Assembly: GCA_003135055.1 (NCBI GenBank) | Contig: PLDF01000349.1 | Location: forward strand, 1-64,000 | Direction of reading: 5' to 3' | DNA from: Bryobacterales bacterium | GTDB taxonomy: Bacteria > Acidobacteriota > Terriglobia > Bryobacterales > Bryobacteraceae | DNA: 64,000 nt | Shown here: piece by piece, positions 13,326-63,736 of the stretch | Layout of the letters: each line of letters begins with the position of its first letter | Position numbering within the stretch: position 1 is the stretch's first letter | The notes under the pieces: model-generated | Told to the model about the DNA's origin: nothing | The model's input: only the letters and a program-made list of their open reading frames with translations | Database searches by the model: none | Program-made: the position numbers and the translations under genes

Positions 13326-13506
13326 AGAGTGGGACAGACCATCGGGTTTGGTGGTCTGTCGTGCCTCGCTAGCACGGTCGCGGACAGAGGACGAATGGCG
13401 GTCGTTTGTCCCAGAAGCCGGGCCGCCACCCATTAATCGCCCGCCCGGCTTCTTCACTTCCCCCCCAAACTTACCGCCTCCAACTCGTCTAAGTCCCGAG
13501 GCGACC

Positions 13507-15191
13507 ATGGAAACCGTCCTGCAGGATCTGCATTAGGCCATGCGCACGCTCGCGCGGCAACCGACCTTTACCGCCGCCGCTGTCTTCACCTTGGCCGTGG
13601 GCATTGGCCAACACCGCCATCTACAGACGCCACCTTGTTGCGCACGCTGCCGTTCGCGGATCCCGGCCGCCTGATGAAAGTCTCGCTCACTGTTCCGCCA
13701 TCGCCCACCCGGCGCGCGCCGCAAACTGCCAGGCGACATAGTGTGGTCGTATCCGAAGTATGAGACCTTCGGCCATTTGCAAAAGGTCTACCGGCACACG
13801 GCGATCTATCGCACGGTCGACTTCAATCTGACGGGCGCCGGCGAAGCGGAGCGGTTGCGCGGCGACATCGTGGGCGCCGGTTACTCTCCCGTGCTGGGCG
13901 TGAACGCCGAAGCAGGCCGCACGTTTCTGCCGCAAGAGGACGCCGTCCCCGAGCGCGATTTCGTGGCCGTCATCAGCCGGTGAGGAATCCGCGAGGTATC
14001 GCGCCGGCGGCCTTGAGCGCGTCGGTAAGCTGGGCACGGGAGCCTTGCCACGGCGGTAGCAGTCTCACCGGCGCCGGGCTGATGATCAAAAGCTTCGGGC
14101 GGCCGATCGCAACCGGAAGCGGCGTCGATCCGGAAAAAGTCCTCACCGTACGCATCAATCTGCCCGACGCAGCGGCCGGCCACGGCGCGTCCCATGACGG
14201 ATCCACGGCCTTCTTCAGCGAACTGGAACAGCGGGTTGCCGGACTTCCGGGAGTCACTTCGACCGGGATGGCAAACTGCCACGCGCTCGCAGGCGGATGC
14301 AATGTCACCATCATCCGGTTTCGCGACCGTCCGCCGGTCCCTCGCGGCGCCGAGCCATCCGTCGGCGTCCTCTTCGCTTCGCCCGATTTCTTCAAGACGC
14401 TAAAGATTCCCCTGCTGCGCGGCCGCTGGTTCACAACCGCCGACCGGCAAGGCGCGCCGAAGGTTGTGCTTGTCAGCGACGTTGCCGCGCGCAAGTTTTG
14501 GCCGGGCGAGAACCCTATCGGCAAGCCGATCGCCAATAGGCTCGAAAGGCATCGTGGGCGACGTCCGTTACGGGCAGATGGACGAAGCGCCCAAGCCCGA
14601 CGTGTACGTCTCGTATTTGCAATCGCCGCGCAGCAGCCTGGTTTGTCTTCGCGCGCACCGCCGGGAACCCGCTGGCGCTCGCCGATGCCGTCCGCGGGCA
14701 GGTGCAATCGCTCAACCGGAATGTCCCGGTTTACGACGTCAAAACCATGACCGGGCGCACTCGCGAATCCACCGCGAAAGCCCGTTTCAGCGCGCTGCTA
14801 TTGGCCGTATTCGCCGCCATCGCGCTGGTTCTGGCCGCGATTGGCATCTACGGTGTGATGTCTTATCTGGTAACGCAGCGCACGCGCGAAATCGGCATCC
14901 GCATCGCGCTGGGGGCCCGCTCCTTGGACGCGCTCAAACTGGTGGTCCGGCGCGGCGCCGCTCTGGCGGGCGCCGGAATCCTCATCGGCGCAACGCTGGC
15001 GCTGGCGGCCACACGCGCTCTGGCCGCGCTGTTGCGCTCTGGCCGCGCTGTTGTATCGGGTGAAGCCGGACGATCCGGAAACCTACGTGGCGATCGCCGC
15101 CGTGTTGGGCCTGGTGGCCCTGATGGCGAGTTACCTTCCGGCGCGGCGCGCTACCTGGGTGGAACCCTCACAGGCCCTGCGTTCGGAGTAG
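13507..15191 (+). pseudogene. Decayed ADOP-type ABC permease, copy 1
   Basis: It begins METVLQDLH, then TAG, then AMRTLARQPTFTAAAVFTLA, the typical ADOP N-terminus with a nonsense codon where Tyr is expected. The rest is spread over all three frames: PKYETFGHLQKVYRH, GAGLMIKSFGRP, FFKTLKIPLLRGRWF, FWPGENPIGKPI, then QRTREIGIRIALGA. It ends with the remains of a WVEPSQALRSE tail at 15191. About 700 bases are missing compared with an intact gene, mainly near 13980. A 19-base tandem duplication (15015-15052) shifts the frame in the last membrane segments. Confidence 0.9.
15015..15052. repeat. 19-bp tandem duplication inside the ADOP relic
   Basis: GCGCTCTGGCCGCGCTGTT occurs twice in succession. 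Nineteen is not a multiple of three, so this duplication alone breaks the frame. Confidence 0.85.
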
Positions 15192-15260
15192 CGGCGAGCC
15201 ATGTATAGCCCAGCCGTATACCAGCGGCATTACGAAGAGCGTGCGATCGACGCGTTCGAG
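15192..15260 (-). pseudogene. Duplicated 3' end of cdsA
   Basis: Bases 15189-15260 match 17506-17577 with only a few differences. There the same sequence is the last part of the intact cdsA gene on the minus strand. Here it is followed by unrelated DNA, so only the cdsA tail was copied, together with the upstream ADOP 3' end. Confidence 0.85.
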
Positions 15261-15280
15261 TTGCCGGCCTGGATTGCGCT

Positions 15281-52123: not shown

Positions 52124-52984
52124 TCAGTTCTCCACCGGTATCTTCTCCGCATGATCCACCACCAGCATCTCCACCGGAGCTCTCTTCGCGTCCAGCTTTA
52201 AGCCGAGTTGCTCCTGGAGCGCCGTGAAGAGATCGGGGCCGGGATCGAGGTCCGGCGGAGGCGCCGGAGCGCCGGGAATTGGAATGATCCACGAGAGAGT
52301 AAAGGCGTATTCGCCTTTCAGACCGGTGGCGTCGAGCACCGGGCCGCCTGTGATGCCAGAGAGCCGTTCGGCGAAATTCGGCATCAATTCCTTTTCACCT
52401 CTCAAGCGGGCGTGGCCGTTGTTGATTAGCGAGAAGGATACGCCGGCGGGCAGCACGGCGTATCCATCGGCCCCCGCAGTCACTTTTTGAGAGCCCGGAT
52501 TAGCGGCGGCTTCGGCGAGCTTTCGTTCGTCGTCGGGGCTCCACGCTTTGAATTTGGGGCCGCCTTTTGCAACGGTCAGTTCGTCGACCGGCATCTCTTT
52601 CGCTTCGCGGTGCGCCGCCAGCTTGAAGCGCTCTGCCAGCAGATTCTGCAAGCATCTGACGGAATTGCTCTTCGGCAGCGCCTTCGGGAATCGTCGCGTG
52701 GATGTCGTAGCGTTCCGTGTTGAACCAATGTTGAACCATGCCGGCGCAGAGAGCCGGTAGAAAGGGAGATCGTATGCTCTTTGGACCACCGAGCCCAGGG
52801 TTATGCTTTGATAATCGATACGGCCGGGGTCGGAACTTCCCGGCCCTCCGCTAGTCCTCGGACGCCCGGGCAAACCACCAATCGGCGCGGAGACCTTAAC
52901 GCTGGCAGCTTCGAAGGCAGGCGGGGCGGGCTTCACGCCGAGAGACTGTGCGAGCGCAGCCACAGAGATGCCCGCAAGCCACAC
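52124..52984 (-). CDS. TIGR03435 soil-associated protein with scrambled internal segment
   Basis: A 286-residue secreted-type protein (LAGISVAALAQSLGVKPAPP at the N-terminus). TIGR03435 features: FEAASVKVSAPIGGLPGRPR, SITLGSVVQRAYDLPFYRLS, LQNLLAERFKLAAHREAKEM, and AFTLSWIIPIPGAPAPP at the end. Residues between PAWFN and LQNLLAER are out of register: the family sequence TERYDIHATIPEGAAEEQF, then RQML, is present but in another frame. An 11-base tandem duplication (TGGTTCAACA plus one base) followed by one extra base downstream restores the frame, leaving about 28 foreign residues. The family has no established function. Confidence 0.85.
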   Translation of the reverse strand: MWLAGISVAALAQSLGVKPAPPAFEAASVKVSAPIGGLPGRPRTSGGPGSSDPGRIDYQSITLGSVVQRAYDLPFYRLSAPAWFNIGSTRNATTSTRRFPKALPKSNSVRCLQNLLAERFKLAAHREAKEMPVDELTVAKGGPKFKAWSPDDERKLAEAAANPGSQKVTAGADGYAVLPAGVSFSLINNGHARLRGEKELMPNFAERLSGITGGPVLDATGLKGEYAFTLSWIIPIPGAPAPPPDLDPGPDLFTALQEQLGLKLDAKRAPVEMLVVDHAEKIPVEN

Positions 52985-53100
52985 GGTTCCTGCAATGTGC
53001 CGATAGCGGTTCTCATTCTAAGGGCCTCCCGCCACATCTTCTGCAATCCCGATTCCAGCGGGGACGCCGCGAGGCCGCGTCAGGTTACCGCGGCGCTCAA

Positions 53101-55137
53101 CTACCCCGCGAGCGCTTCCTTGACCTTTCCCGCCAGCGCCGCCGCCGTATAGGGCTTCTGTATGAACCCCGCCAGGCCCTTGCCCGCGAAGCGCTGCACC
53201 GCTTCCACCTCGTTGTAACCGCTGGTCAGCAGCACCTTCACCTTCGGGTCCATCAGTTGCAACTGCCGCAGCGTCTCTTCGCCGCTCATCACGGGCATGG
53301 TCAAATCGAGCAGCACCAGCGCCACTTTGCCGGGACAATTCCTGTAAGCTTCCAGCGCCGCTTCGCCATCCTGCGCCGGAATGCTCCGGTAGCCGTAACG
53401 CAGCAGGGTGTGCCTCGCGGCGGTGCGAACAATCTCTTCGTCGTCCACAATCAGCACTGTTCCGGCGCCTGTCAGGTCTTCCATTTTCGGCGCCGCCGCA
53501 GCCGCCACGGCGCCCGCCGATGCCGGAAACAACACCTTAAACGTGGTTCCCTGGCCGGGCTTGCTATACACCTTCAGCGCGCCTTTGTGCGCGCGCACAA
53601 TTCCCAACACCGCCGAAAGTCCCAGCCCGCGCCCCGCGAACTTAGTGCTGAAGAACGGGTCGAAAATCTTCGACAGCGTCTCCTCATCCATTCCGGCGCC
53701 CGTGTCGTGGACCTCCAGCGCCACGTAGCGCCCCGGCCGCAGCAGTTCCCCCGCCGACGACATGGTGCCGATATAGTGCTCGTCCACATCCTGCAAAGCG
53801 GTCCGCACCAAAACCGAGCCGCCTTGCGAGCCGATCGCCTCGGCGCCGTTGATCACCAGATTCATCACGATCTGCTGCAACTGGCCAGGGTCGGCATCGA
53901 TCCCCGGCAGATCGCCGGCAAGCTGCATCCGAAGTTGCGCGTGTTTCGGAAAGGAAGTCTGCACCAGGCTGCTGATTTCACGCACCAGCTCGGAAAGGTC
54001 GAGGGTGTGCATCACGAAACGGCCCTTGCCGGCATACGCCAGCAATTGGCGCGTGAGCTCGGCGGCGCGCTCAGCCGCCTTCATGACCTCTGCGATCAGC
54101 GGCCGGTTGGGATGGCTGGGCCCGATGTTGTCCATCGCCAGACTGGAATTGCCCAGAATGCCGGTCAGCAGGTTATTGAAGTCGTGCGCCACGCCGCCCG
54201 CCAGCACGCCCAGGCTTTCCAGTTTCTGCGTGTGCCTCAGTTGCTCTTCGATGCGGATGCGCTCGGTGATATCGGTATTGATTTCCAGGTATCCGGCCGG
54301 CTCGCTGTCGCCCGCCTTCCGCACGGCCCAACGGCTGGCCACTTTCAATTCCGACCCGTCCTTGCGCGTGTGCGTCAGTTCGCCTTCCCAATGTCCGATC
54401 GCTCTCAAGCGCTCTTGAATTTCGCCCATCGGCAGGGGAAATTCCGTCTTCAACAGTTTGTGCGAGATGCGGCCCAAGGCTTCATCCCCGGTCCAGCCAT
54501 ACAGGCTCTCCGCGCCCCGATTCCAGAAGCGAATGGTCCCGTTCCAATCGAGCGAAAGAATCGCGTCGTGCGCCAGGTCCAGTAATTGCGCCTGCTCCCG
54601 CAATTCTTCCGCCGCGCGCTGGGCGGCCTGCGCCGACCGCAGAGCCTCCGCGGTACGCTCTTCCACGCGCTGCTCCAATTCTTCGGCGGAGCGAGTCAGT
54701 TCCGCTTCCCGGCGGCGTCCGCTGGCCGCGATGCGGCTGATCAGAATCGAGACCAGCAACAGCAGCGCGAAACGGAGCGGGTCGGTGGGCTGCCGCTGCG
54801 CCAACCCCAGCGCCTTGGGAAGCACAAACGTAACCAGCGTCCAGGTCATCACGCCCGCGCCATAGCCCAGCCACGACGAGCCGAGCAGCACCAGGAAATA
54901 GAGCAGCGTGATCACCACGCCCAGCAGCCCCATCGAGCCGCGTGGCGCGCCGTGAACGAACGGATAGGCGGCGACGCTCAGCAGCGTCAGCGCGGAAAGC
55001 GCGATGGCGTAAGCGCGGATCGGCGCGGGAATAGAGGAGGTGGCCCTGTTGAGCACCCTGCCGGCAGCGGAGGTTTCGACGGAGCGAACCATGATCGGCG
55101 TGGACCCAGGAGGAGCCTCTTCACGGGCTAAAATCAT
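53101..55137 (-). CDS. Membrane-bound PAS hybrid histidine kinase with receiver
   Basis: A 678-residue kinase. The N-terminus has about four membrane segments (IALSALTLLSVAAYPFVHGA, LLGVVITLLYFLVLLGSSWL). It is followed by a coiled coil (RSAEELEQRVEERTAEALRS), one PAS domain (GTIRFWNRGAESLYGWTGDE), and the HisKA His in LAGGVAHDFNNLLTG. The HATPase has DTGAGMDEETLSKIFDPFFS. A C-terminal receiver (TVLIVDDEEIVRTAARHTLL) holds Asp in ALVLLDLTMPVMSG. The start is uncertain: ATG 55137 or 55093. It shares domain order with the kinase at 1310. Confidence 0.92.
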   Translation of the reverse strand: MILAREEAPPGSTPIMVRSVETSAAGRVLNRATSSIPAPIRAYAIALSALTLLSVAAYPFVHGAPRGSMGLLGVVITLLYFLVLLGSSWLGYGAGVMTWTLVTFVLPKALGLAQRQPTDPLRFALLLLVSILISRIAASGRRREAELTRSAEELEQRVEERTAEALRSAQAAQRAAEELREQAQLLDLAHDAILSLDWNGTIRFWNRGAESLYGWTGDEALGRISHKLLKTEFPLPMGEIQERLRAIGHWEGELTHTRKDGSELKVASRWAVRKAGDSEPAGYLEINTDITERIRIEEQLRHTQKLESLGVLAGGVAHDFNNLLTGILGNSSLAMDNIGPSHPNRPLIAEVMKAAERAAELTRQLLAYAGKGRFVMHTLDLSELVREISSLVQTSFPKHAQLRMQLAGDLPGIDADPGQLQQIVMNLVINGAEAIGSQGGSVLVRTALQDVDEHYIGTMSSAGELLRPGRYVALEVHDTGAGMDEETLSKIFDPFFSTKFAGRGLGLSAVLGIVRAHKGALKVYSKPGQGTTFKVLFPASAGAVAAAAAPKMEDLTGAGTVLIVDDEEIVRTAARHTLLRYGYRSIPAQDGEAALEAYRNCPGKVALVLLDLTMPVMSGEETLRQLQLMDPKVKVLLTSGYNEVEAVQRFAGKGLAGFIQKPYTAAALAGKVKEALAG

Positions 55138-55610
55138 GTTACAAGGTTTTTGGGCCGTCGAGAAAACCGCCAATTGGCACAATCGGCAAAACCATCCGCA
55201 GAAGGGCGCCCACACGTTTTCGGGAAGCCCCGTTTAAACTACTGCTCTGACGGTCGCGGTTCTGAGACTATCTGCAAACACGCGCAGTCGAAACCGAGAC
55301 GCGACTGCAACGGAACTGGGATTCTCGCGGCCGATCGAGGATTGGGCTAGCTGCTAGCCTGTCGTCCTCCATGTCGTCTCCCCCTGTCGTTTCCCCCTGT
55401 CGTCTCCTCCTGTCGTCCCGGCCTGGCCTCACACAAATTGTGGGGCAGCCCCCAGTCCGCCATAGCCGCTAAATTAAGGCCCATTTCACGCACCGAAGCG
55501 CAGCCCCCTGACAGCGCGGAGCACGCGCGCCGACTGACATCGTCGTTCATAGAGCGGGGAACCTGGGCGCCTCATTTAAAGCGAGAATCTGCCATTCGGC
55601 GACCTCGGCT
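55138..55610. other. Gap with short tandem repeats, no gene
   Basis: It holds the TGTCGTCTCC tandem units at 55360-55421 and a GTGGGGCAG fragment at 55440. Short frames on both strands have no family support. Confidence 0.55.
55360..55421. repeat. Short tandem repeat, about 13 bp, five units
   Basis: Successive units start TGTCGT and end in TCCCCC-like runs (TGTCGTCTCCCCC, TGTCGTTTCCCCC, TGTCGTCTCCTCC and variants). It is pyrimidine-rich on the plus strand. Confidence 0.8.
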
Positions 55611-63022: not shown

Positions 63023-63736
63023 ATGGCAACCCCTAAACAAACCGCGGCGAACCGCATGAACGCGCAAAAATCCTCCGGCCCCCGCACCACCGCGGGCAAG
63101 GCCGTATCCCGATTCAACGCCCTGAAGCACGGCATCTACGCCGTTCACCAGATCATGTTCGACGAAAAACCCGAAGATCTCGCCGAACTCGCCGCCGAAT
63201 ACCACGAACACCATAGCCCCGCCGATTCCGACCAGCGCTTCCTCGTCGACACGCTCGTCCACAACGAATGGCGTCTCCGCCGCACGCGCCGCGTCGAAGC
63301 CGAGCTCTGGCAGACCGCCAGCAACGCCTTCCTGGTAAAGAATATCGAGACCACCATAACCTGCACTTCGGGCGACGCCTTCGCCACCGATTCCTCCACC
63401 TTCGAGCGCCTCCAGCGGGTCGTCAATTCCTGCGAGCGGGCCTATCACCGCGCCCTCAAAGAGATCCAACGCCTCCAAGCCCAACCCAAAGTGGGGCAGG
63501 CGCTTCCGCCTGCCAACGTGCCTGCCAACCCCGCTCCTGTGTCGCAGAAAGCCACCCCCGAACCCGCCGCCCAACCCGAACAATCGAAACCCACTTCCGG
63601 CAAAATGGGTTCGGTCCGTCAAAATTCGAAAACCCCGCCCGCCGCCCCATTTGCCCAGCCCGGCCCCGGCGCAAACCCCGCGGAACCCCGGCCATCCAGC
63701 GCTGATCGCGACCCAAAGCCGCCGCGAACCGCCTGA
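63023..63736 (+). CDS. Conserved protein of unknown function with a repeat in its coding region
   Basis: A 237-residue protein. ANRMNAQKSSGPRTTAGKAV, then SRFNALKHGIYAV, is a widespread N-terminal motif (NAxxSTGPRTxxGKxxSxxNALKHG) of proteins of unknown function in Acidobacteriota and Planctomycetes. The middle is helical (FLVDTLVHNEWRLRRTRRVE). From residue 157 the product is Pro/Ala-rich and includes VGQALPPANVPANPAP, encoded by a GTGGGGCAGGCGCTTCCGCC dispersed-element copy. The C-terminal 80 residues are probably disordered. Confidence 0.8.
   Translation: MATPKQTAANRMNAQKSSGPRTTAGKAVSRFNALKHGIYAVHQIMFDEKPEDLAELAAEYHEHHSPADSDQRFLVDTLVHNEWRLRRTRRVEAELWQTASNAFLVKNIETTITCTSGDAFATDSSTFERLQRVVNSCERAYHRALKEIQRLQAQPKVGQALPPANVPANPAPVSQKATPEPAAQPEQSKPTSGKMGSVRQNSKTPPAAPFAQPGPGANPAEPRPSSADRDPKPPRTA
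63492..63530 (+). repeat. Dispersed hairpin inside a coding sequence
   Basis: GTGGGGCAGGCGCTTCCGCC then TGCC. The stem GGCAGGCG/CGCCTGCC is complete, and the frame is kept through it. Confidence 0.7.

Follow-up and report, generated by a model that had tools for sequence, protein, structure and literature searches.

The question raised by this locus is whether two frameshifts that cancel within one member of a large paralogous family have created new protein sequence, have damaged a gene whose frame stays open by accident, or exist only in the assembly. The gene lies in a window of 64,000 nucleotides, which comprises positions 1 to 64,000 of contig PLDF01000349.1 from a Bryobacterales bacterium. 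It belongs to a family, TIGR03435/DUF3738, of which one genome can carry about 90 copies; a literature search found no paper that names either TIGR03435 or DUF3738.

Two insertions and a frame-swapped segment

The translation of the window gene matches the TIGR03435 profile over its full length (model positions 1-241) at 197.6 bits against a cut-off of 40, and Pfam PF12543 (DUF3738) at 136.1 bits against a cut-off of 22. It resembles the Acidobacteria paralogues of TIGR03435 (Soli_TIGR03435) and PF12543 in this full-length match, a secreted-type N-terminus, the conserved core and the C-terminal motif, but differs from them in its 26 wrong-frame core residues and its out-of-frame start signal. 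By descent the gene is a family member, though a damaged one. Its features are the following.

52124..52984, minus strand: TIGR03435/DUF3738 family gene of 286 aa; open frame, weak GTG start, TGA stop
52718..52739, minus strand: imperfect 11-nt tandem duplication (+11 nt), TGGTTCAACA twice exactly with one base between
52650..52651, minus strand: one additional T within ATGCTTGCAG (+1 nt), frame restored
52652..52729, minus strand: wrong-frame stretch IGSTRNATTSTRRFPKALPKSNSVRC, -2.2 bits against the family segment model
52650..52733, minus strand: family segment WFNTERYDIHATIPEGAAEEQFRQML, readable only in another frame and scoring 50.2 bits with the segment model
53014..53030, minus strand: Shine-Dalgarno-like site GGGAGG, 8-nt spacer and ATG (53016-53014), out of frame with signal peptide and body

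Together the two insertions (+11 and +1) add 12 nt, a multiple of three, which keeps the frame open; the double, mutually compensating frameshift of the original prediction is confirmed in the sequence. The 11-base tandem duplication described there holds as a gain of 11 nt, but its layout is strictly TGGTTCAACA T TGGTTCAACA, with exact 10-mers 11 nt apart at 52718-52727 and 52729-52738 (plus-strand coordinates), which can be described as a 10-nt repeat plus one base or as an 11-nt duplication whose copies differ at one position. The single extra base, placed earlier about 75 bases downstream, lies at 52650/52651, about 78 nt downstream of the duplication, as ATG-CT(T)G-CAG, where relatives read ATGCTGCAG or similar. 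Scrambling of about 28 residues had been claimed; the scrambling is real, and its exact extent is 26 residues (IGSTRNATTSTRRFPKALPKSNSVRC, residues 66-91 of the modelled protein, 52729-52652) that stand in for a 22-residue family segment.

The family segment itself, TERYDIHATIPEGAAEEQFRQM, can be read between the two insertion sites in another frame. Against a segment model built from the corresponding segment of 49 intact relatives, with the intact scores obtained leave-one-out, this hidden reading scores 50.2 bits, the intact median is 49.9 and the in-frame reading scores -2.2, which bears out the claim that the normal segment is present only in another frame. The full family model picks up the other-frame piece unaided in a whole-genome search (profile positions 56-83, 21.9 bits, E 6e-4), and as a separate protein searched against all NCBIfam it scores 24.4 bits (E 2e-5). 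On the evidence of these scores, chance is excluded as the source of the match.

The protein core and the start of the gene

Modelling of the altered stretch had been proposed, and it argues against the idea of a foreign loop. For an intact relative, AlphaFold2 (mean pLDDT 91) predicts that the segment forms a beta-strand (68-74) and the beginning of a long helix (81-96), with pLDDT 96-98 there, whereas in the model of the window protein the mean confidence drops to 58 for residues 71-80 and lies below 50 for residues 68-72. The replaced stretch is therefore predicted to be a core beta-strand and helix start and no loop. The fold itself is predicted with high confidence (pLDDT 91, L104, G090:C938) yet has no PDB match: a PDB fold search with this model returned nothing at E <0.1, the best hit having E 0.69.

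Outside this segment the gene resembles a working one. At a threshold of at least 80% conservation among 43 relatives, 56 columns qualify, and the window protein deviates at six of them. Three of the six belong to the segment, which has five such columns, and the three take in both columns that never vary in the 43 relatives, A77 and M91. The conserved core segment of the family (a strand, A.., and a helix start with M) is accordingly not found in the in-frame reading. Outside the segment, 48 of 51 strongly conserved columns are retained, and apart from its frameshifts the gene displays no decay and no in-frame stop. Because the hidden segment has not drifted and these outside columns are kept, the events would be either very recent or errors; if the double shift is not an assembly error, the state of the sequence marks it as very recent.

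The start region suggests a further lesion. The Shine-Dalgarno-like site and its ATG sit just upstream of a signal peptide, AGTVWLAGISVAALAQ, that shares its frame with the body of the gene, and the open reading frame has no good in-frame start, although an in-frame GTG exists at 52984. In 37 of 62 relatives of ordinary length a start codon with a Shine-Dalgarno-like site is found in frame, usually an ATG 20-28 codons upstream of the FEVAS motif. Since this start signal lies in another frame, a third frameshift is probable, and the simple reading of the start-site argument is an indel between the ATG and the signal peptide; use of the GTG at 52984 would be the alternative.

Broken siblings and the quality of the assembly

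We think it probable that the window gene is a very young pseudogene, or a pseudogene in the making, with two shifts that offset each other by chance. The +11 of a short tandem duplication and the +1 of an inserted base would have added up, by luck, to a multiple of three, leaving the frame open, and a further frameshift would probably divide the start codon from the body of the gene. The compensation would be accidental, with the garbled 26 residues destroying the core strand and helix start, in a copy that may be one of many redundant paralogues under loss. As lesions that could abolish function, the gene has a replaced core segment and a start out of frame, yet its frame is open; we infer both the loss of function and the order of events. 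In its short tandem duplication, single-base indel and many broken siblings the gene is like the frameshifted bacterial pseudogenes of expanded paralogous families. It is unlike the usual ones in that its two indels cancel, which leaves the frame open, and automatic annotation would take it for intact; cancelling frameshifts can in this way lead an annotation pipeline to mistake a damaged gene for a whole one.

The main rival holds that at least one of the insertions is absent from the organism, a sequencing or assembly error in an ordinary intact paralogue, and we judge it unlikely but deserving of serious weight. The source genome is a 10.7-Mb draft of 515 contigs, its contamination estimated at 9.3%, the gene carries two or three indels without other decay, and the one-base insertion recurs at a second locus in an identical 16-nt context. 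Published work has moreover shown that many apparent bacterial pseudogenes are assembly artefacts (PMC11017572). Against error at this locus, an 11-nt duplication is atypical for base calling, and control families in the same assembly have far fewer frameshifts.

That comparison can be put in numbers. A profile search gives 117 TIGR03435 matches in the source genome. Detailed reading of about 92 gene places showed at least 10 frameshift-split copies, the window gene not counted.

Split siblings: C247, C325, C30, C489, two in C169, C268, C414, C478, C418

One of them, C489:81303-81983, carries another pair of opposite shifts, but with stops in the outer frame. In the same assembly about 3 of 29 RND pumps (each of more than 1000 aa), 1 of about 68 ABC ATPase domains and about 1 of 85 MacB-type permeases are broken. 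By these hand tallies, 10 of 92 split family copies compare with 5 of 182 controls (Fisher p 0.009), and frameshift breakage among the TIGR03435 siblings is several times above that in the three control families. The kinase gene that adjoins the window gene (53101-55215, 704 aa) is intact and the control families are mostly whole, which makes a general indel problem of the assembly unlikely, though a local one keeps some probability; general indel noise is supported neither by the control families nor by a 438-kb frame-scan, even if there are some other shifts. A systematic base-calling error at CTGCAG or GATGCTGCAGAA likewise found no support: depletion of CTGCAG is not markedly stronger than in relatives, and the assembly has GATGCTGCAGAAC, the intact context, at three further places. 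A genome-specific excess of short tandem duplications was set aside as well: for units other than multiples of three, loci that were not a random choice gave 5.9 per 100 kb in this genome and 3.4 in relatives, a difference that falls short of showing one.

Beyond the source genome, the relative G090 has 71 TIGR03435 matches, about a dozen of them fragments; in the two near-complete genomes searched, the 5 and 6 matches are free of stops and close to full length throughout. The window gene and its siblings document a heavy turnover of copies in this family, which is among the largest of the unexplained paralogous families of Acidobacteria. The frame-scan of the window identified clear mid-gene shifts in just one further gene, a decayed permease. 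This gene, named by eye as MacB/ADOP-type (13400-15280, plus strand), has at least three frameshifts near 14546, 14643 and 15039; the last lies at an exact 19-nt tandem duplication (15015-15053), a lesion type that matches that of the window gene.

Possible selection or recoding, and a shared extra base

The original prediction saw here a possible live example of new sequence. That the double shift made a functional segment held by selection strikes us as very improbable, and that the altered copy is expressed and its frame-swapped 26 residues took on a role, remodelling the core of the paralogue, as slightly more so. The open frame and the conservation of the remaining protein are what such a function would lead one to expect, but the invariant residues are lost, the predicted fold loses confidence there, and a third frameshift probably lies at the start. 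The segment is also unique to the window gene. No orthologue carries it in the same frame, either in a protein search of 237 family genomes or among 5 relatives returned by a GTDB contig scan, and the matches to the 26 residues that were checked are out-of-frame readings of normal copies, with the exception of the broken C247 copy. Among intact homologues, the foreign peptide appeared solely as an out-of-frame reading wherever the frame was checked (L018, L062, L108, L116, L119, L122). The suggested comparison with paralogues of the same genome yielded no other frame-intact copy with the segment. Taken with the absence of the segment from every frame-intact relative, the probable third shift and the many frameshift-broken siblings speak against new sequence. 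Were the altered protein functional, it would offer a rare and recent example of sequence from a swapped frame within a folded domain; the evidence points the opposite way.

The second locus with the extra base is a paralogue in the same genome (L133, C247:63156-63817), in which the identical T stands in the identical 16 bases, GATGCTTGCAGAATCT, at 63605-63631. The two copies are alike in this +1 base at the conserved MLQN codon, but the C247 copy is without the compensating duplication, has two other frameshifts and falls on a different branch of the family tree. When 237 genomes were scanned for additional bases at the MLQN codon, only the window gene, the C247 copy and one degenerate remnant in G076 came up, the remnant with a different extra base at that codon; the identical insertion is confined to the two copies of the source genome and absent from the genomes of 236 relatives. 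Shared descent of the insertion was considered and rejected: with moderate support, the tree groups the window copy with C495:59031 and the C247 copy with C342:64853, both partners being intact, and these different partners make common descent unlikely. By a rough estimate, the chance of a coincidence in both site and base among 16 independent insertions is about 4%. We leave the shared base as a coincidence or a weak hotspot, unexplained and within reach of chance.

Scarcely credible is a programmed +1 frameshift site at ATG-CTT-G-CAG, with CUU slipping to UUG, in some members including C247: two non-sister paralogues do carry the identical insertion at one codon, and CUU is known to slip by +1 in other systems, but the site is not conserved among homologues (two copies in one genome, none in 236 relatives), there are two further frameshifts in C247, the site is followed by neither a stop nor a rare codon, and a +1 slip in the window gene would move the ribosome out of the main frame. 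Two further broken members, L137 (C325:23981) and L154 (G076:C19:1084), switch frame at or within 1-2 codons of the conserved MLQ motif. Since L154 was found through a pattern designed for the MLQ site, frame changes there do not establish a hotspot.

Some copies in the source genome have open frames of 500-750 aa (e.g. C247:31687-33150 and C103:15014-16471) and are tandem or fused, with either two TIGR03435 domains per frame or the domain after a long N-terminus that by eye has the look of an M56/BlaR1-type membrane peptidase.
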